DNA of 64,000 nucleotides. Source: Struthio camelus (lineage: Eukaryota; Chordata; Aves; Struthioniformes; Struthionidae). This document shows, one piece after another, positions 6,101-42,000 of the stretch (position 1 is the stretch's first letter; every line of letters begins with the position of its first letter). The stretch is from NCBI RefSeq assembly GCF_040807025.1, contig NC_090953.1, positions 2,231,501-2,295,500 on the forward strand. The letters run 5' to 3'. The notes under the pieces were generated by a model. It was given only the letters and a program-made list of their open reading frames with translations, had not been told where the DNA came from and searched no databases. The translations under genes and the position numbers were made by a program.

Positions 6101-9100
6101 TGGCTAGAGTCTAGATCGATGATTTGGTCTCAGGTGAAAAAGCCCAGGCAATACAGCATAGCCAAGAGCAGCCACCAAAACCTGGTCCAACGTGCAAGAT
6201 GGTGAACACAGTCAGTCAAGCACATTGCTTAAAATAGCGCCGTTAAAACAAACAAACAAACAAAAAAAAGCAGCCTCAAGACAGGCGCGGGGAGGCATCC
6301 TGCAGCTGCTCAAGGGAACCATGCAGTATAGATTATGAGTTTCTGAGACTGGGACACTGTCCAGTCCAACCAGAGGTAGAAGAGATCAGAAAGATATTAA
6401 TCTGCAAATACATATAAATGTACTCAAAGTGGAGCACAAAGATCGAAGAAGAACCATGAGATAAGGCGCGTTGGATTAAAGGTGAGGGAAACGGAGCTTG
6501 CAGAGCGCAAGTCTAGCAAAGCTCTGGACAAGTTTTCAGGCCTGGAGAAAGCCCGAGGGGCGACCTCAAATGCAGTCTGGTCACTCCACGGCCCCTTGCT
6601 CCGTTCTGCCCATGCACATAGCTACGCTAGATGGCCATTTTTCATTCTTTTGATACACACCAGACAAGACGAGGGCTCGCTCTAAATTCTGGCTGCCCTT
6701 GCCGTTTGCCACGAACCCTAAACAACCAGCTCTGTTAATCCTGCAGTGCCACAGGCACCCAAGGGTATGACCTGGAGAAGCTCCTTCCGTTGCAAGTGCG
6801 GAGAGTGACGCTCCGCAGCGCTGGCAAGGCAGAGGCCAAGAGCAGTCTGCAAACCTCAAAGGAAAACCCGGCCGATTTGCACGTACCACAGGGTGCCATG
6901 CAACAGGCAGGACAGTGCAATGGTCTTAAATGCAGGGCCTCAATGAGAGGCGGAAACCAGACAGATCCCCTCTGGTCCAAACCGTGCCGGGCAGACAAGG
7001 AAGAGGTGCCCCAGGGAGGGAAGCCGTGGAGGGGAGCAGGGAACGGTGAGGGCAGGATCCAAACTACGATGCTGCCACGTCCATAAGGAACCTGCTGTTA
7101 CTTTTCCAGACAGAAACGCAGAACTGGATTTTTCCACTTTTCTGAATATAATGTACAGGCAAATGAAGCAGGAGGAACCCGAAAAGGAAATCCTCACGGC
7201 CTTGTCCATGATAGACAGGCAGAAGAAAGGGTTTATCACCGTTTCAGAACTGAGAGCCAAGCTTACAAGACTAGGAGAAAAGCTCTCCGAGGAAGAAGGT
7301 ACAGTTTCGCAGCAGACGTGCCAAATACTCATCTTCTACTTCTCTCTTCTCTGATTTTCCACCTTAGGTGGGTCTGGGAGCAGAAAGGCACCTAGCTGGG
7401 AAAAAGCAAATCATCCGTGCTAGCAAAATTCAGGGCTGCAGCATCTTGGGGAAGGGCTAAGCCAGCTGCCAAGTAACTAAGAGAGCTTTTCCCTTTTTCG
7501 AGTTGCTTCCCGAGTGACATTTTTTCTGCTCAGAGATGACTCCCTATTTTTACCAAGTATCTATGGCACGAAGGGCCTTCTGAAAGCGGCCGTGTCCTCA
7601 GCTCTAGAGATGCTTGAAGAAATACACAGGGGAACTGGCAGCTTCCCAAGGACACCACTGTGGTTAGCTCTGTGGCAGAGCAGCTTGAAAGCGGCAGAGT
7701 GGGACTTTTAAAATCAGGAGTAAAAAATAAAAACACAACACAACCACCACCATCACCTCAAAAACCCACCACTGTCCGGTTTGTCAGAAATTTGCCCAAG
7801 GGGCTCAATTGGAGGGAATTTCCAGGAAGCTGAAAATAATCAGAACCCGATTTTGGCCTAGCCAGTTTATATACGTACATAAACAGTTTTTTAAATGCAT
7901 GCTATACTTTCAGGATTTCATAGGATGAGCCAGGGAGCCTAGACCTGAGGGAAGTCAGCCGTGCCGTGCCGTTTCTCAGATCGCGCAATTCCCTATCAAG
8001 CCCAGATGTGCTAAGGGCTCCTGTCGCTTCCTTGCTCAGAAACGCCTCAGCCACACACTTTGCGTTCGGCTCTTTGCAGGTTCGCACAGAGCTCTCGCCC
8101 CTTCTACCACGTGGCGGAGCGGAGGCTTTGGAGCTTCAAAATTATTCGGTCTCTGCCAAAGATGGAGCATTAGTAAAACTTATCAGACGTCTGATATGGT
8201 CCAGCAGTGAGTTTTACCAGGGTTCTGGAGTTTGTACAGAGCCCGTTAGGCTCCAAAAGGGCACAAGAACTGTCTTTGCTAACATCAGCGTTTACACGAG
8301 ATCAGGACTGCCAGGCCTTGCTCTATCGCCCCCACTGGCTAAGTCTTCTTTATGGGTGATATACCAATAAGGCAGGTCATCTGAGCATTTTCCTCAACTA
8401 TTTAACTGGAGTAACAGTTTGCACAGCTATTTACATCTGAAAACACTTGCAGAGCTATTGTAAGAGCTGAAAACATAGTGAAGCCATGGAGACATTAGCC
8501 CTAATTAAAGGCGTCCTAGCAAGAACTGCTATTACGCTTGGGGGCGAGACAACATTCCCCATCATCCTGCAAGAGGACAGGTGGCTTACACACCAACTCA
8601 TAACCAGGCCCTGCACATGCTAAGGCAGCAAGCCATGTTTCTTCTCAACTAGAAAGTCCCCCTTTGGCTTGACACAATGAACTCTAGCTTGCTAAGCTGC
8701 TATAAATATTTGATGCCAGAACAGACTCAATTTCATTAGCATCTGCGATTGTTCAGTAACTACTGGCACGTACCTTCATTTACGGTGGTTCCAGAAAAGC
8801 CTTCACTTCACTTTAATTTAATGTACTTTTACCAAATGAGAAACAACACATTTTTCTTCTGGGTTATATTTTTAATTGTTCTGGGAAGAATTAATTATTT
8901 TTGAATTTATGCCCTTGGAAGTATACGATTACCATCAGGATATGCACATTTGAAAGCAGGATTAGATCTCTTGAAAACAAAGGATTGTTACTTACCTTAC
9001 AGGCCCAGCAGCTCTGCAAGGCGTTCTCACCATAGCACTTCCCTTACCCCACTCGGAAACCAGGTCCTTCCAGCAGCAGCGGCCACCGGGGATGCGCTGC

Positions 9101-10920
9101 CTCTTTTACATACCGATACCTGTGTGCAAACACAGAGGTGCAGAGGGAAAAACAGTATCTTGGCCAACACCCTATCAAGAGCAGAGAGAAAGCAGGTGAT
9201 GCTGCCCATAGAGACTTTCCATACAGAACTATTTACAGTAAAATAACCTTTTATTTTTCCCCTTCCTCCTCCCCCACCTTCCCCCAGGATTTCACAACTG
9301 GCAACTGCAAAGCTGTTATTTTGTGCTCAAATATGGGTACTAGGAGTCTTATTTACACCACCCATGGCTCTTTCAGCCTGAACAGCTGTTCTGGCAACCT
9401 CAGCCGAGTTGTTGGCTAGTAAAAACATAGGCCAGCCTCCACAGAGCTGCCCTCACACGCTTCAGGGTTGGGTCGCTCTCCTGGCAGGCAGAGGAGAGCA
9501 CGCGGGAAGGCCAGGTGGCTCCAGCCCGGACAGGAGCGATATGCAGAGGACTCAATTAGCACGTGGAAGATGGGAGAGGAGTCTAATTCAGGGGATTGGA
9601 TGGGATTCCTCTCAGATTTTTTTGTGCCTCTTGTTTTGGTCTGCAGATAGGTGTGACCTGCAGTTATTCCCACTTGTCAAGGAAGCTCTGTGCTGTTGGT
9701 GGCCTCATAGCCACCTGAGATCCATCTGTTTCAGTCTGCTCACGGGCTCTGAACACCTAGAAGGCACAACACTAAAGTACTGAGCATATGATAAATGCAG
9801 GTCCGCAACCCAAGGGCTTCCTTGCAGGGCAGGCTGCCCAGCCTGGCCCTCTCTCCAGCCATGATATTGTTCGTAGGCAGTTGGCCCAAACCATCGAAAA
9901 TGGCACCACACCGGTGAAACCTGACACACAGGACCCAACATTAGCAAGCATGCAAGCAAAAAACACTCTTCTGGACTGTACTAGATACCGTATCAGAAGA
10001 ATTGTTACCCAAAACACTACCAAACACAAGCTCCTGGGATTCTCTTAGATTTGTCTGAGCACCCACCCCGCTATATGTGATGGGTAAATAAGCAAGAGAA
10101 TTCTCCTCCTCCTCTCCTGTGTAGGATATGGCACCTAATTCCCAGTGGCAACTTCATTCAGCAACAGTTAATACTGCTTTTCCATGTGTTACTTATGTAC
10201 TTCTATTTTATTGACATTTATTATTTGGGAAGGGGAAAATACCAAACTATGAATTTTAATAGCTTAGCCTGTACAGAAGAGAACATTTTAAGTTAGGTGA
10301 GTGATGTCACTGCCAAGGCATCCCCAAAGCTGGAATGAAAAGCATCGCTGCACTCACGTGGCAATTTGTACAGTTACCACTTCTTCAGAAGTGTATTTCA
10401 GCGAGAGCCTTAAGAGCCACAGCTGAGAAGGTATTCTTTGCTTTCAAACACCAAAGACCTGCCTATGCTAAAAGGGACGCTGGAATCCTTAGGGTCACAG
10501 TGCAAACCGACCTGACCTTGGGTACAATCTGTCAATCAGCATTAACTCCAGCACCTTCACCAGCACTACACTTACCAGCAGTCAAAGGGGAGGCCATCTC
10601 TGCTCCAAACTGTTTCATTAGAGTTTAAAGTTGAAATCAAAATTAGAGTGCTAATTGATGCTAGTTTAAAAATGCGATCTGGGTGGTTCATCCAACTGGA
10701 AGTTACAGCTCCTGATAGAAGTTTGAAAACCCAAATCTCATACTACTGTTACTTAAAAGATCACAACACTCCTGATACATGTCAAACCAAAATTATCTTT
10801 ATATTTTCTCTCTTACTTTCAGTGGATGACCTGCTAAAAGAAGCCAAAATTGGACCAAATGGAACAATAAAATATGAAGAATTTGTCCGCACCATTAGTC
10901 TTCCTGCAGCCGACTACTAA
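3109..10920 (+). CDS. CALML4: Calmodulin-like protein 4 (five coding exons)
   Basis: Exons 3109-3111, 3235-3265, 5772-5912, 7110-7298 and 10823-10920 join with GT-AG introns and matching phases into 153 codons plus TAA. The protein has four EF-hand units with loops at residues 21-32, 57-68, 94-105 and 130-141. Conserved stretches include AKFLSQDQIN near the N terminus, MRCLGASPTPGEVQ at 37-50 and ELDFSTFL at 63-70, which identify CALML4 rather than calmodulin. All four loops lack key acidic ligands (for example Lys at positions 3 and 5 of loop 1, Lys at position 1 of loops 2 and 4), so canonical calcium binding is unlikely, as known for the family. In mammals CALML4 is a light chain of MYO7B in the intermicrovillar adhesion complex of the brush border, and associates with MYO7A in hair cells. 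The start is in good Kozak context (A at -3, G at +4 after splicing). PIAS1 is convergent downstream. Confidence 0.95.
3235..3265 (+). CDS. CALML4: CALML4 coding exon 2
   Basis: This 31-base exon encodes AKFLSQDQIN plus the first base of Glu12. It is preceded by a strong pyrimidine tract ending in ACAG and followed by GTATGT. Exon 2 of calmodulin genes is also 31 bases, so the ancestral structure is retained. Confidence 0.93.
3266..5771 (+). other. CALML4 intron 2
   Basis: The intron is 2506 bases. The first third is CpG-rich. It contains an HNF1-like palindrome at 4859-4871 and an antisense CR1 LINE remnant at about 5385-5700. No further exon or RNA gene was recognised. Confidence 0.85.
5385..5700 (-). 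mobile_element. CR1-like LINE 3'-end remnant, antisense in CALML4 intron 2
   Basis: Several blocks in order match the antisense of avian CR1 elements from memory of the family. These are a TCATTGCAACTTAAAGCC block near 5415, a TTAGACTGAA...CTCAATTAGCTCAG block near 5527, CCTTTCTCTGGGTCCTCC near 5590 and CATATCCCAGCTGGAACC near 5655. On the minus strand these correspond to the end of the reverse transcriptase ORF of CR1. The copy is heavily diverged and 5' truncated, as is usual for CR1. Exact ends are uncertain. Confidence 0.6.
5772..5912 (+). CDS. CALML4: CALML4 coding exon 3 (EF-hand 1)
   Basis: This 141-base exon encodes residues 12-58 and the first base of Asp59, running from the E-helix of EF-hand 1 through the conserved MRCLGASPTP segment to LHKI. 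The acceptor is TTTTAATTAG and the donor GTGAGT. It is too short for its own long ORF and was found by reading for the expected protein between exons 2 and 4. A CR1 remnant ends a few dozen bases upstream of the acceptor. Confidence 0.93.
5913..7109 (+). other. CALML4 intron 3
   Basis: The intron is 1197 bases. It includes a short CAAA-type simple repeat near 6249-6268. A possible faint CR1-tail similarity near 6340-6360 is too weak to call. No gene was found. Confidence 0.85.
7110..7298 (+). CDS. CALML4: CALML4 coding exon 4 (EF-hands 2-3)
   Basis: This 189-base exon runs from the rest of Asp59 to the first base of Val122. It encodes the end of EF-hand 2 (ELDFSTFL), the central linker (MKQEEPEKEIL) and EF-hand 3 (loop DRQKKGFITVSE). 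The acceptor is CTTTTCCAG and the donor GTACAG. It is longer than the corresponding 107-base calmodulin exon, so the downstream intron sits at a different place. Confidence 0.95.
7299..10822 (+). other. CALML4 intron 4
   Basis: The intron is 3524 bases. It has unremarkable composition apart from pyrimidine-rich and AT-rich patches near 8780-8900 and 9240-9290. The ORFs inside it have no recognisable similarity and no splice-compatible continuation of CALML4. Confidence 0.85.
10823..10920 (+). CDS. CALML4: CALML4 coding exon 5 (EF-hand 4, stop)
   Basis: This 98-base exon follows a TTACTTTCAG acceptor. It encodes VDDLLKEAKIGPNGTIKYEE and the C-terminal helix, ending in AADY and a TAA stop at 10918-10920. 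The degenerate fourth loop keeps Gly at position 6 and Glu at position 12 but lacks Asp at positions 1 and 3. Confidence 0.95.
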
Positions 10921-33000: not shown

Positions 33001-36000
33001 TTTTCCCTAAATCCTTATCTGTATTCTAAAGCAAAAGCACAGCACTGCATTCACAGCAATAACCAGGATTCATCAATTTGTGTGCAACCACTTCCGCAAC
33101 GTAACTTAAAATAAATTTTTTTAAAATGCTTATTTCAGATACCTGCAGTTCTTGTTAGATAAAAGATGACTTTAAAAAAGAAAGTATTCAGAAATCATTT
33201 ATTCTATAACCTGAATGGAGACTCTTTCACACTTGACAAGAAATTCACTGTGACAGGGAAGGAGAGAAATAGCAGCATGATGTTTCATATATGGCTATTG
33301 GGTGCAGTTGGGCTATTAGCATTTTTCCCACTGTGGCTCAAGAACCCTGGGCTTTGTGCACAGCCAAGATCTTGGAAAAAGTTTCATCTCAGGATAATTC
33401 TCAGGACTTCAAGAAAGAGGATGGCTGCAATGACAAAGCCACAATTTTTCAAGCATGCACTGATTCTGTAATGTATATCTCGCAGTAGTTTGTCACCAGT
33501 GAGAGCCGATGCACTGATTCATGGAACAACTTGAAGTGACTTTTTGCAGGCTGTTCCAGATTTCATTAGTCCAGTGGAACACCAACAATTTTATAATCCC
33601 CTCAGACACAAAAAAAGGTTCTAAAAACATGACTTCTTTAACATTAGGTATATGGATGTTTGTGAGAACAAAATATGAAACAGGCAAGCTATATTTCCTG
33701 GACACTACTGAGTTGCTATGCTTTGCTGTCTACTTTTCCAGGGTTAAGCAACACCAGTTTGTACAGAACGTCACACGTTAGTAGGTCAGTTAAAAGTTGA
33801 ATCCAAGATAAGGTTTGCCAAGCCTCAAAATCGGGAAAATCTTGAAGTCTAAAGTTAAACAAAAACTCCTTATATAAAGTTTCTTGAACCTACTATCTGG
33901 GCCCTCAATGAGTCACAAAGATAGGTAGGTGGGCGGGGGGATGAAGAGGGAGAGGTCACACTACGAAAAAATTTGAGGGCTACTGATCCAGGGAAGCGTG
34001 CCGTATCTGCCCGGCGTAAAGTAACAGAGAAATGCAACCAAAAGAAGGAACAGCCTATTGCTAAACCATGAAGTATTTTCTGCACAATTAAACTTGCTTA
34101 TCGGTCAAGTCTTTCAAACATATGCCAAAACAGAAATTAATAAGCTTAGGCAGCATTATGTACCAAATAAAGTGACTTACTCTTCCAATTTCTGCAGTCC
34201 ACGAAACGACGATTGTGTTTGGTACCGTCGTAGATAATCTGACGAGTGAGGTAATGTTGATTGGTCGGCTAGGTCGCTTTGGTTCAACACCATTTTTGGT
34301 TGGTGGAAGATAGCCCTAGAAATGAAATCATTTATTTTAACTCAAAACAAGGAGGAAAAAAAGAAAAGAGAGAGAGAGTGCTCTTGCCTTCTCTCTCCCC
34401 TCCCCCAGAAATCCTGCCCCTATAAAAGCTCTGTGTTCCACCTGAACCAGGCTCTCTCCAATTTAAAAATATACATGACAGACAGCACAATACCAGCTAT
34501 TTCACAAGTCCTTTTCCTTACACAACATCCTAACCCCGCCTGCTGGAACATCAGGGGTGCCTTTGTCACCTCCTCGCCTTTCTCTGCTGGCAGTATTCCT
34601 AGCCAAGCTGCCTGGCTAAAAACACCCAAGCTAACCCTGTGCAGCGCCCCAGTACTGTAAGTCAGTGTCTCTCTTTTGTCCTGTTGGTCAGTGACGGTCT
34701 TCTCCCCGCACACATGACCTCCAAAACAGGGTGCCATTTCAGCCAGATTCACCAGATGTTTCTAGAACATAAAAGTTTACTCTCACTCTGTTAGAAAATT
34801 AATCTTCCAGCTCTATTGGCTGGTCTCATGAGAAACAATTTACTTAACTGTCTTTTTCATTCATCCAGCCACCTCCATTCAAACCCTTCAAAATGTGAAA
34901 ACAAAGGTTAGGATGAATGCTCAGGCACACTTCTGGCAGATAGCTCATAACAATGTTACCCAGTCATATAAATCCAAATTATATCTTACTTACTGGAAGG
35001 CTGCATGGTTTCCCATTTACTTTCACACACAGATTGGGTGGGAAGTGATCTTCTTGTGGACAACTGGTCTCTGATAAACAAAACCTGAAAGCAAAGAGCT
35101 TCCGTCACCTTTCATTTGTAAAATGTCTTGGAGACCACCCATTCCTAGAGGGAAGCTTTCTCAAAAGAGCTGTGAGACCACACCAAATCTTGCTAAACAC
35201 AGTCCTCAAATTAGCTGTATGGCTCAATAAGCAGGAAATCCCCCCAAAATTAAAAGGTGTGGGTTAAGGGGGCCATAGGTTCCTCTTCAGGTTTCTCAAA
35301 TTCCTCAGGCTGGGTCTGTCTAACAGCAGAACCGTTCAAGCAGGCAGGTTCCTGCTACACCAGATAGACCATTCTGCTTCTTTCCCCCTACTCCTCCTGC
35401 CTGACCCCTTCTTGGTTGTTCACAAACAACAATACATGCCGTCTGTTCAACTATCCCTCCTCCGAACATCCATAAGCCAGCCAGCTACAGTATCAAACCC
35501 TATGTCAGGCCCTTTACTTCAGTTCAGACAGTTTCCGACAATGCTATTTCAAAGGTTTATTTGCTACTGGAGCCAAAATAAGACACACCCTCCCTTGCAC
35601 TATGAAGTGCTGATAGGCCCAACACTGCAGACAATGGGCTTTCAAAGGACAGACCTAAAGGACCTTCTCAAATCCACTGGATTTCTTCCAGGGACCTGCC
35701 CTAGGCGCTCAAACATACCATCATATCAGGGTATAGCTAGTCAACGCAGCTGAGCCTAACAGGCCGCTGCCCTCAAAAAGGGGAGTTACCTTCTGTCCTT
35801 GTTTTCTCTCCTTCCTTCCCTTTCCCTTCTGTTCACCTGACCCCGCACTAAGCCAATTTAACTTGCTGATCAGCAGAAGTTAACCTGATAAACGAGACCC
35901 GAAAGCACTTGCTTTCTGTCTGCAGAGTTAACAACTCACCATGTAGTTGTGCAAACACCAGAATCGGTGCAAGAGAGGAGTGAGATAGCGCAGCCAGAAG

Positions 36001-39000
36001 CAGAGGGATGGAAGGCAAGACAGCCATTTCTGACAAGGGCAAGCTGCAAAGTCAGCTCTACTGTAAGGTCTGCTCAAATCCTTACAGAGAATTACAGGGA
36101 TATACAGGATTTAATCAGCTTCCGATAAGTTTGTCAAAACCTCTAAATAACCAACAGGTTAAGACTAAACCTGGTGATTCGCAAAATCTTGCCTCCCGTT
36201 CCTAGCAGGAAAGTAGACCTTGGGTTGCCACGCCCAGCAAATACAGCGTTTGGCATCTCTGTTAGGAAAAACAACCCTTCCTGCACATGGGGTCTGAAGG
36301 CCAGGACACCTGGAATCTGACAGATTTGGGGTTAAAGAAAGGAGCATACGCACAATCTAAAACAATGAATTGAAGAAAATCAGTTGGTTATAGCATGCAG
36401 TACATGCATTTTTCTGACATGCCAGATATCAAGCCATCAGGAGCCTCAGGAAAGCTGCATATAACAAAGACAAGCAGTTAAGTCTGCCCTTTCCAAAACA
36501 GCCAGTAGCTGAAATCTCCCACAACAAACTTTTCTCAAGATAACAGAAAGCAGGATGAGACTATCTTCCACAAAGGTAAGATAGACTTGCTGAGCAGCAT
36601 ATATTTGATATTTTACGTTTCCAAAATATTTGGAAACGGCAGCATCAAGAATAGGCCATATGAATGCATACCTTAGCTGGACCTGTACAAGAATAGGCCA
36701 TATGAATGCATACCTTAGCTGGACCTGTACTGTGAAGTCACATTTGGTCCCAGAAATATCCCTGGCAAAGACAAAACACAGGTTAAGATGTGTTATTTAT
36801 ATAGTAGGATCATTAATGCTTTCTCAGAGTTTGCTATAAGTTGATCCGTGTGTGCGTGCGCGCGTGCGTGTGCGTGCGAACCTTTTTGCATACCACGCTT
36901 TCCTTCCCCCGGTCAGTCAAACCACCACCCTTAAGACACATTAAAAAATATATACATTTTATTTTTCAGAGTAAACAATTCAATTACATTCTCATCTCAC
37001 CTCTACCATTCTCTTCTTTTGGTATACTGTAAAGAAAATTCTGATGGGTCACTAGGTACATCTTTAAACTAAGTAAATATAGAACTCAGCCAATTCCTGT
37101 GTTAACAGTGACAAAGGGCTGCAAGGAGGAGAGTTATGTTATTTGTACAGCAGGTAGTACAAAAGAAGCCTGTCCGCTCTTCACTGGGCAGTGGTTATTA
37201 ATTCTCTCTTCCTTGTTCTTTCCCTTTCCATCACCTCACATACAAAAGAGAAAAGAATTGTCCAAAAGAGTATTCTCTGAGGCACTATGCACTCTTCTGT
37301 GTACTTTAAGATCACATTTTAAAGTAAAAGTTACAGTAAGCCCATTCTTTTGGGGGGTTTAAATATTGTACTATCAACAAAACTCACTTACATTGAACTG
37401 CTGATTTGCTGCACCTGTTGGGGTGTAAGTGCAAACGCAAAGCAAGTTTCTCGAAATCGCTGACTATTATCTGATGCTAGAAGAAAACAAGAATATCATT
37501 TTTAAAAACAACAAACAGAATAAATCGAAACTAACCTTTCCATTGAAGTGTCTATACACGTATATACATATACATAAAAATAATTTAATAGCAAGAACAA
37601 CTGTATGACACATTTCTGTAAACAATTTCAAAGCCAACAAGAAATGTGCTATTTAAAGCCTTTTGTAAATAAAAATAAAATAAACAAGCTATATATTTAT
37701 ATATAAACTATATATTTAAAAAGTGATAGAGAAAACAGCAAAGAGGAGACAACTCAGCTCAAGACTTTCTATCAGTCACGGTAACTTAACTGTAGATAAG
37801 TCTTTGATATTAAATAAAAAAAAGCATTTAGGGAACCTCATCAACAAGGAAATGAAAAAAAAGTTAACACACAAGATCGTGGATTAGCCTGCAAAAGCTA
37901 ACAGAGTGACTGAGAAGTACAATATATACAACTCCTCTAGGTGCTTCAAGAAGAGAATCTTTTATAGAGTTAAATGCAACAAGTATATAGCATACAAGCA
38001 TCTCATGAAATATGCACAACTTAAATAAGAAATCTGGGTTTAAGGTCCTTCAACTCTGTGCTACAGAGCTCTGTAACAGAACAAACCATACTTAACAATT
38101 AACGCACCTGCTGAAAACCAAAGAACATTAAACATCTCCAATGACTATGTTGTGTATTAAACGGTCAATAAGTTTATCATTTTTTGTTTTACTATAATAC
38201 ATTTCCCAACTCAATCTTGAGTGACAGATGAGTGAGTACTTTGGGGTGACACTTCAGATACTTTGTTAAAAAGCACCACGTGGTAGGTCAGAACCAACCA
38301 CAGAATAGACATTGACTTAGTATAAATATCAACAGCGGCAAACTCACAAAATTACATTACATTACCTTGTATGTTAATGCTACAAGACCTGTAAATTTTA
38401 TTGCATGCAACAGCGATAGGTAGTTCATTTGTTAGTTACTGTGCGGAGCAATTACCGCAGTCAAAATACACCAAGAACAGCCACTGTGTGATCTGCAATA
38501 CGTTTTTCATTATTCAGACCTGTGGGCACACCACTACTAAAACTATGTGGGCAAGAATAAACAACCTTCATTGAAAAACAGCTTTTGCAAAAATACTGGC
38601 AGCAGTAAATATTTTTAAAAGACTTAAATTTTCTGGAGTATTGTTTATGTTCATGTACTTTCATTTTCTTTCCCATCATTTCCTATACAATTATCATAAT
38701 GGGTATACCCTGAGCGTTTCCCAAAATACACAAACGGGAACTAAAATACATTTATTAATAAAATGTTCCACTGTAATGGAACATGTTTAGTTTAATGTTT
38801 AGTTAAGACACTCAGGCCTACAGGATCCACCAGCTATTTTGGTTTTAATAAATTCTCAATTTATTTTCTCAAGGAAAAACATGCAAGTCTTAAGATGACA
38901 GAATATGACTATAATATGACAATGTAAGAATTTGCAGGAAGTATAAACACAATGTTTACAATAAGCAATGAAAATCTTTTATAATATTTGTGTGCACGTA

Positions 39001-42000
39001 TTTTACAGCTATCGTTGGCTGTAAATGACAAGGTCAGTATTATATATTGTAATCGACAAAAGAGAAATTAACTGACCAAGTTAAACAATCCCTTGCATGT
39101 CAGACCATTAAATTAAAGTTATTATTTCACATTTTTGCATGTTTAAAGGTGACCTGAACCTTTGCTTTTATTTTCCTGCCATGAATTGATTGCTTTACCT
39201 TAGCAATTTCAATTCTGCTTTTACTAGAGAAGTTCTGGAAAGTCTCGGGAACGTTTGTTGTGAACTGCAACATCTTTAATCGTAGGACAAGGCCGTTGAA
39301 TGTTTAACACAAGCTACCTTCATTTAGGACTTAAATCACTCAAAGAAGTTAAACAGCAGTTAACAACAACAAAAATCTAAAACCAAGTCTCCCAAGTCAT
39401 CTTTGCCCCTTGCAGCTGCTCAACATTTTGCCTGCTTGGGTTTTGCAGCGTTCCCAGTTTAGAGGTAGACTCAAACAGCTAATACGCACTTCGTGTGGTG
39501 CTAGAAGAAGGGAGGAACAAAATAACTGACCAAAGCAGCAAGAGATCCTAAAACTCAGTTCCCCTCTTCTTTACCGGCTGATATTAATCCAAAACTTATT
39601 TTTGCTACTTAACAATTCGTGACCTTGGAAAACGAGTCTCAGGTTTCTCCATTCAATTTCATCGTGCTTTTGACATCGGCCAAATTAAAGCATTACACAT
39701 CAGAATGGCAGAAAATGCAGAAGTATACACTTCAGTGCTGACATGGAAGCCTCCAGAATTCAAGTTTTCTTCAAGAGCTGTATTTCTAGCACTTTCAAGA
39801 GCTGTATTTCTAGCACTTTCACATGACATTAAATATCCTCTGCTTGAACGAAACATTTTAGCAGCAGAAACAGCCACTTCAGACTCTTTTAAAAAAAAAA
39901 AAAGAAAAATCACACAAAAAGCATTAATAAGAACTGGGTCCTGCACAGTCAATGAATTCATTCTTACCTAGAATTCACCTAAACTGAAAGAGGTGAGCAG
40001 GAAGGCTGCGGTGGGGTTTTTGCTCGTTTGTTTTCAAATATTGTCAATTTAACTCAAAGAACAAAAATTGAAGGCCTCCATCATTTCTTCTTATGCTTGG
40101 CTATTAACGTCTTATGCACTCATCTTAATAACTGTAAGCAAAAGTCTATGAGCTGATAGATCAATGGTCCCCAGTGATCAGAGATGTACTTTATCACAGG
40201 CTGCTTGATCTCCTCTTAACTGCAGAACAGCATTAATATACACAGGCAGTGTTTTCAATACACTGCTTTTGTGTACAAGCAATCATTGTGATTATCCTTG
40301 GCAGCACTGCCAAATTGCAAAGAAGGAACAACTTGTTAATTAGAGAAAGATGATCCAGCAGCCAATCTTAAAAAGACTTCAAAACTCTTGACATATTGAG
40401 CAGTAAAGAAAGAGGGGGGGAAAAAGATGTACCAGCACACTCAAGAAGCCACATTACTCAGAATTGTGCATAACTAAAAGATAGCTACAGCGAGACTCTC
40501 GAGCTAGTATTAGGATGCAATTCTGCCTCTTGGAAGCCAACCTGAAAAAGAGCAAATTTAAACACAAACTGCACAATTCAGTGTGCGCTACCATAAGCAT
40601 GTCTAACCTTTACAAACAGACATATTTCAGCCAATTATAAATAAAGCATTTGAGTCTTTACATTCAGCATGATATTAAGAAAAGACAAGAACAAGCTACA
40701 CGAGCACCACACAGAACCAGTTTAACACACACACAACAAGCTGTAAAACAGGCCGTGACCAACAGGGGAAATACCAGGCTACCACGGTGAAGAACACGGT
40801 AAGTTTTACAAGGGCTGTCTGTAGCGGTTACCAGCATTGCTTCCATCTCCTAGCTCACAGTTAAGTTTCGGCAATTGCTACTCTGCTCGCAACACCCCAG
40901 CGACGGCTTCCCACCCGACTGCTCCGCCAGGAGCCAGCCCCGGACGGAGGGACACCAAAATCCACCCTCCAGCTGCTGAAAAACCAGAGACAGCCAATTC
41001 AAGCAGAGGTCAGTAAAACATGGAAAGGAAAGCGAATAGCTCCATAAAGACTCTATTTACCATACTTTAAAAACAACCACCAATTTAGGCTGCTACTCAT
41101 GCCCTTTCGCAAAACAAAGCTGGGGGCTTGTGGCCCTTCTGGGGTCAGAAGGGAAGCTGCTTGCTGGTCCGGGGGCTCGTCTAGGAGGGACGGGGAAACA
41201 CAGCAGGGCAGATCGGACCATCAGAACAAAAACATTGGATGGGAAGATGGGAGATGAGAAATGTTTTCTGTGGAGATCCAAAAAGAAGTTTCTGGCTTTT
41301 TCTGATCTTCTTATACATTTTCTCACTATCTTTTTATTCTCATGCATGTTATTTCTAGATGTACTTACCCAACAAATGATGCAAAACATGTTGCTAAATG
41401 AGCTCATTTAGCAGCTTTCCATTGAAGACTAGGCTTCCAAAAGCTCATCTATGAGCATACAAACTCCCCTGCCTCTAAAAATTTCAGATTTCGCAAGGAA
41501 GAGCCAGTGGAAGTTTGAAATTTAAGAGCGTACAAAAGCTAACTGATTTGTACTAATTCATCTGGTATTTCTGCTGGGTCTAGAAGCACCAAATAGATCC
41601 TGGTAAGTGAAACACGTAGTCCGCTTTTAAAGATCTGGAACATGCTTAAAACCAGAATTATGCATGTATATAATTTTACACTAGAAAAATCATTTTGATG
41701 GCTAGAGATGGCAGCCATGCCCTGCAAACAATCATTATTATTTAACAAAGGGTAGGCAAAAATAGATCTCCAGCTGAAAACCGAGCAGATTAAAACAGAG
41801 CATATAATCTAATAAAGATGGGATCTAGCCAGGACAACAGAATTAATGTGAACATTCATATGAAAGTTGCCAAGATCATTTTTCCACAACTATGAATTAT
41901 TAAATTTTATACCCTTCTCTTTAGCATTCTCTGAATGGTACAGAGCTTGGAGGATTAGTTAGAAGTGGTCTATAAACCACTTTGCAATCAGAAAGATATT

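Follow-up and report, generated by a model that had tools for sequence, protein, structure and literature searches.

A perfect 42-bp tandem duplication spanning the exon 4 splice donor of PIAS1 in Struthio camelus and its predicted effect on splicing

Introduction

What becomes of a gene whose splice donor has been copied in place? In PIAS1 of Struthio camelus the end of exon 4 and the beginning of intron 4 stand twice in succession, and a second donor of this kind could represent a selected isoform, an error of the assembly, a newly formed intron or an ordinary small duplication with a side effect on splicing. We analysed a window of 64,000 nucleotides (the whole stretch at 2231501-2295500 of a 26.9-Mb contig) from an assembly of 1,451,902,618 bases in 262 contigs, the largest of which measures 225.6 Mb.

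Results

The gene carrying the duplication is PIAS1, located on the minus strand of the window. Comparison by tblastn with human PIAS1, the only PIAS paralogue among the probes, gave main blocks of 80.7-100% identity over exons 2, 3 and 5-14, as befits a PIAS1 orthologue, and exon 4 was represented by 15 residues identical to the probe. The few extra weak rows of this search (E 4.5 and 5.9) were dismissed as chance matches. Exact exon ends were fixed by GT and AG, and the exons are numbered on the assumption that a single coding exon precedes exon 2. Apart from the duplicated stretch the gene is intact, with 13 exons (2-14), GT-AG introns and an open frame.

TRF reported at 36646-36730 a repeat of period 42 with 2.0 copies, 100% matches and 0% indels, and a repeat search revealed two adjacent copies, arranged head-to-tail and identical at 42 of 42 positions (Table 1). 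An exact scan extended the identical run at offset 42 to 43 bases by a further matching base at 36730, which leaves the position of the breakpoint uncertain by 1 bp. The first-pass annotation had described a perfect 42-bp tandem copy across the end of exon 4 and its donor; all three methods agree with this description, and its start at 36647 instead of 36646 is explained by the same 1-bp ambiguity. Identity over 42 bases by chance is negligible. Little or no microhomology is present at the junction (1-bp ambiguity), as in duplications of the end-joining type. The window contains two distinct inverted repeats of this grade (stem of at least 10 bp, loop of at most 4 nt) that are not simple sequence, among them the one listed in Table 1; the remaining ones of the 37 rows are AT runs. 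That the listed repeat marks a fragile site linked to the breakpoint is speculation.

Table 1. Exons, donors and repeats around the duplicated end of PIAS1 exon 4 (positions in the window)
Feature	Positions	Strand	Remarks
PIAS1 exon 3	37392..37476	-	85 nt
PIAS1 exon 4, normal form	36714..36761	-	48 nt, a multiple of 3
Upstream copy of the 42-bp unit (gene orientation)	36688..36729	-	last 16 nt of exon 4 and first 26 nt of intron 4
Upstream donor AAG/GTATGC	36708..36716	-	intron starts at 36713
Possible exon extension via the downstream donor	36672..36713	-	42 nt, adds 14 residues
Downstream copy of the 42-bp unit	36646..36687	-	100% identical
Downstream donor AAG/GTATGC	36666..36674	-	intron starts at 36671
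Perfect inverted repeat	36616..36638	.	10-bp stem, 3-nt loop; 7 bp off the duplication edge
PIAS1 exon 5	34994..35084	-	91 nt, joined next by either donor

The duplication provides one exon with two donors of equal sequence and equal score, 42 nt apart, and the gene-strand sequence common to them extends from -17 to +26. Assignment of the exon ends placed the first G of the intron where the first-pass annotation had it for both donors. Scored with an approximate matrix, with sites listed from 3 bits, each donor reaches 7.95; among the 11 further PIAS1 donors of the window five score lower and six higher. The pairing of this donor sequence with U1 (-5.7 kcal/mol) is the second weakest among 12, and with U1 pairing so weak the context could have a strong influence in favour of either donor. 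Between 36780 and 36560 only one further GT exceeds 3 bits; it lies at 36741 inside exon 4 and is weaker (5.1).

Fold predictions suggest that the accessibility of the donors is similar, with the downstream one slightly more open: the mean unpaired probability of the nine donor bases over five fold windows was 0.34-0.36 for the upstream and 0.41-0.44 for the downstream donor, and the probability that all nine are open was 0.0033 against 0.0075. RNA structure as a switch was rejected, the 181-nt region having a z of -1.21 with 23 of 200 shuffles equally good. According to the first-pass annotation, nothing but position and flanking enhancers would decide which donor is chosen. For the donor sequence itself, identical from -17 to +26, this is fair; exon length (48 against 90 nt) and predicted pairing differ as well. 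The classic expectation for equal, strong donors is that the one nearer the acceptor, here the downstream one, is favoured. Since the present donors have the same sequence and only intermediate strength, normal and plus-14 transcripts would be expected to occur together.

Whichever donor is used, the spliced translation of exons 2-14 stays open up to the stop: joining at the upstream donor gave 643 residues, and joining at the downstream donor 657, of which 14 are inserted; skipping of exon 4 also keeps the frame (627 residues). Read-through to the second donor therefore proceeds in frame and without a stop, adds 14 residues and makes VQVQL appear twice, as the first-pass annotation had anticipated, and its placement of the duplicated stretch inside the PINIT domain is supported by a Pfam match of the normal form to PF14324 (E 2.1e-26, 93.4 bits against a cut-off of 27). 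With the insert the score declines slightly, to 90.8 bits, so the sequence models give no sign of damage. PINIT is described as a beta-sandwich by which Siz/PIAS ligases recognise their substrates (PMC7618375). Judged from sequence, the insert would fall within a beta-strand. The aligned PDB chains of PIAS3 (4mvt) and PIAS2 (4fo9) have no insert at the equivalent place; Hax3, the sole additional PDB row up to E 10, was discarded as spurious. The titles and abstract openings among the PIAS papers listed report no extension of PIAS1 exon 4.

The frequency of such duplications was estimated from a background sample of 18 stretches of 10 kb (180 kb on three contigs, stepped rather than random, with 65 N). 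Duplications of 15-120 bp that comprise two full copies were sought by an exact scan, low-complexity units being set aside; the sample contained two perfect non-simple ones (units of 20 and 78), and TRF added one more at 100% that is one base under two copies. The 64-kb window holds two (units of 42 and 24) against about 0.7 expected (Poisson about 0.16, calculated by hand). A count of two is thus unremarkable, and this class of duplication is not rare in the genome. Scaled up on the assumption of 160,000 coding introns, these counts suggest that before selection such duplications would span a donor in tens of cases per genome (point value 75, range 9-270 from counting error alone). Under neutral rates of 1.5-3e-9 per year, the absence of differences over 42 sites limits the age of the duplication to less than about 12-24 million years, or 19-38 million years if the 26 intronic bases alone count.

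Discussion

Our analysis revealed a duplication that gives PIAS1 two identical donors and leaves the reading frame open with either of them. We consider it most probable (about 0.75) that this is a fairly recent, small germline tandem duplication over an exon-intron junction, and that the long form is a by-product and not a selected product. By this account the 42-bp duplication copied the 3' end of exon 4, the splice donor and 26 nt of the intron, most likely when a staggered DNA break was filled in and its ends were joined, or through replication slippage. Both routes are compatible with the 1-bp ambiguity at the junction, and breaks with 3' overhangs are reported to give rise to small duplications with little microhomology (PMC8355091). 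The spliceosome could presumably use both donors: use of the upstream donor would yield the normal protein and an intron 4 longer by 42 nt, and use of the downstream donor would place a 14-residue insertion in the PINIT beta-sandwich. Most likely the allele would be neutral or mildly harmful, and the insertion form tolerated as its by-product.

The most serious competitor, which we nevertheless regard as unlikely, is that an error of assembly or polishing created the 42-bp copy. Several of the assembled mitochondrial COX1 copies are split, suggesting small indels and thus an assembly with local errors, to which the locus could also be subject; the split copies could alternatively be nuclear copies. 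Against such an error stand the chromosome-size contigs, the correct reading of the unit's coding stretch in both copies, and the comparable perfect duplications, of which one occupies an intron elsewhere in the window and two more occur in the sampled background. A DNA search of the animal's own genome with 301 bases matched one place only, at 100%, and gave no alternative haplotype or second copy of the locus in the assembly. The window is without N and the locus is found once, which makes a gap artefact unlikely. Much further down the scale we place the formation of a new mini-intron by AGGT duplication (the Rogers model), by which 42 nt would be spliced out and the normal exon restored. 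The unit does contain two AGGT motifs, TACAGGTCC and TAAGGTATG, present in both copies, and splicing out the 42 nt between the first AG/GT and that of the next copy would bring back the short exon; in other genes introns are reported to have been made by duplication of AGGT, and duplication-born introns have been described in Drosophila and potato (PMC2891723, PMC4974935). The lengths required here, 42 nt or 31 nt from the donor at 36713, fall short of the usual vertebrate minimum for introns, and the GTCCAG donor scored below the 3-bit listing limit. Removal of 31 nt, moreover, would leave a 59-nt exon with a shifted frame. On length, the weak GTCCAG site and this frameshift we rejected the mini-intron, which has hardly any chance of being correct.

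A selected, lineage-specific PIAS1 isoform, in which a regulated downstream donor changes substrate choice or nuclear retention, is a further alternative and a very improbable one. It draws on the fact that the insert is in frame, lacks a stop and doubles the beta-strand-like VQVQL motif, in a domain assigned to substrate recognition (PMC7618375). The solved chains of PIAS2 and PIAS3 that could be aligned carry no insertion here, and the class of duplication is not rare in the genome. In-frame tandem splice sites are reported to be selected against, more so in folded, ordered regions, a result that concerns spacings of 3, 6 and 9 nt only (PMC2279118), and between human and chimpanzee indels in coding sequence and splice sites are described as fewer than expected (PMC2654908). 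With regard to localisation, the PINIT of amphioxus PIAS is reported to play no part in nuclear localisation, which argues against an effect on nuclear retention, although PINIT is reported to be essential for mouse PIAS3 in this respect (PMC5719053). We likewise give very little credence to the fuller version, that the donor duplication, in a SUMO ligase of deep conservation, is fixed in one bird lineage and produces a stable, regulated isoform with a doubled PINIT strand and altered substrates.

The small germline duplication favoured here resembles several known systems. Among human segmental duplications, 27 intron modifications are reported to have resulted from repeats at exon-intron boundaries, and in most of them a transcript keeps the repeat in the exon (PMC2812944). 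Those repeats, like the PIAS1 unit, are short head-to-tail copies that a transcript can keep or splice out; they belong to primate segmental duplications and have RNA support, whereas the present case comprises two copies in a single-copy bird gene and is known from genome sequence. Splicing-altering repeats at exon boundaries are thus already known, and the PIAS1 case is ordinary in kind. Tandem alternative donors (PMC2279118, PMC2423196, PMC1779574) share with it closely spaced competing sites and an in-frame difference, but those reported lie 3-12 nt apart and arose mostly by point changes, while the PIAS1 donors are 42 nt apart and identical through duplication. The two neighbouring donors of DOK7 intron 4, which also serve one exon and between which U1 and SRSF1 decide, are 11 nt apart, of unequal strength, frame-shifting and minigene-tested, in contrast to the equal, in-frame donors of PIAS1; there, under SR-protein control, the favoured downstream donor is also the stronger one (PMC5585400). 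With regard to origin, the fill-in duplications attributed to CST/Pol alpha (PMC8355091) likewise have units of tens of bp and hardly any junction homology; they were obtained experimentally in cultured cells, whereas an origin of this kind for the PIAS1 unit is a matter of inference.

Should the allele prove real and common, PIAS1 would offer a natural experiment on donor choice. Two donors with the same sequence from -17 to +26 would compete within their native gene, and nothing but position, exon length and wider context could decide between them, a clean test of the choice between equal donors. It would also test the tolerance of a folded domain, in a regulator of essential type, to an insertion of 14 residues. 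As it stands, the duplication is a minor annotation point, and gene prediction programs may or may not take the 42 nt into the exon; we regard it as an ordinary, real-looking duplication whose interest lies in a predicted consequence for splicing.

Additional observations

A second perfect tandem duplication, with a unit of 24 bp in 2.2 copies, is present at 39770-39821 in PIAS1 intron 2, and the same intron contains a 22-bp perfect palindrome without a loop at 41392-41413. On the same contig, a perfect 78-bp tandem duplication (L024, 2883-3040) was considered as a second donor duplication and set aside, there being no evident exon. Frames resembling the exons of an EF-hand protein, possibly CALML4, lie on the plus strand at 6947-7351 and 10546-10917, tail to tail with PIAS1; the first gave a Pfam EF-hand_7 match of 22.2 bits, below the cut-off of 30, and the second matched nothing.

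Elsewhere in the assembly the mitochondrial genome of about 18.3 kb was left as head-to-tail concatemers (C84, C96 and others; L002-L008). A frame that we take to be ND5 is followed directly by one that we take to be cytochrome b, and then by tRNA-Pro and an ND6-like frame, both of which occur in the mitochondrial contigs a second time, the ND6-like one only in part. The succession of ND5, cytochrome b, tRNA-Pro and ND6 is the order characteristic of birds.
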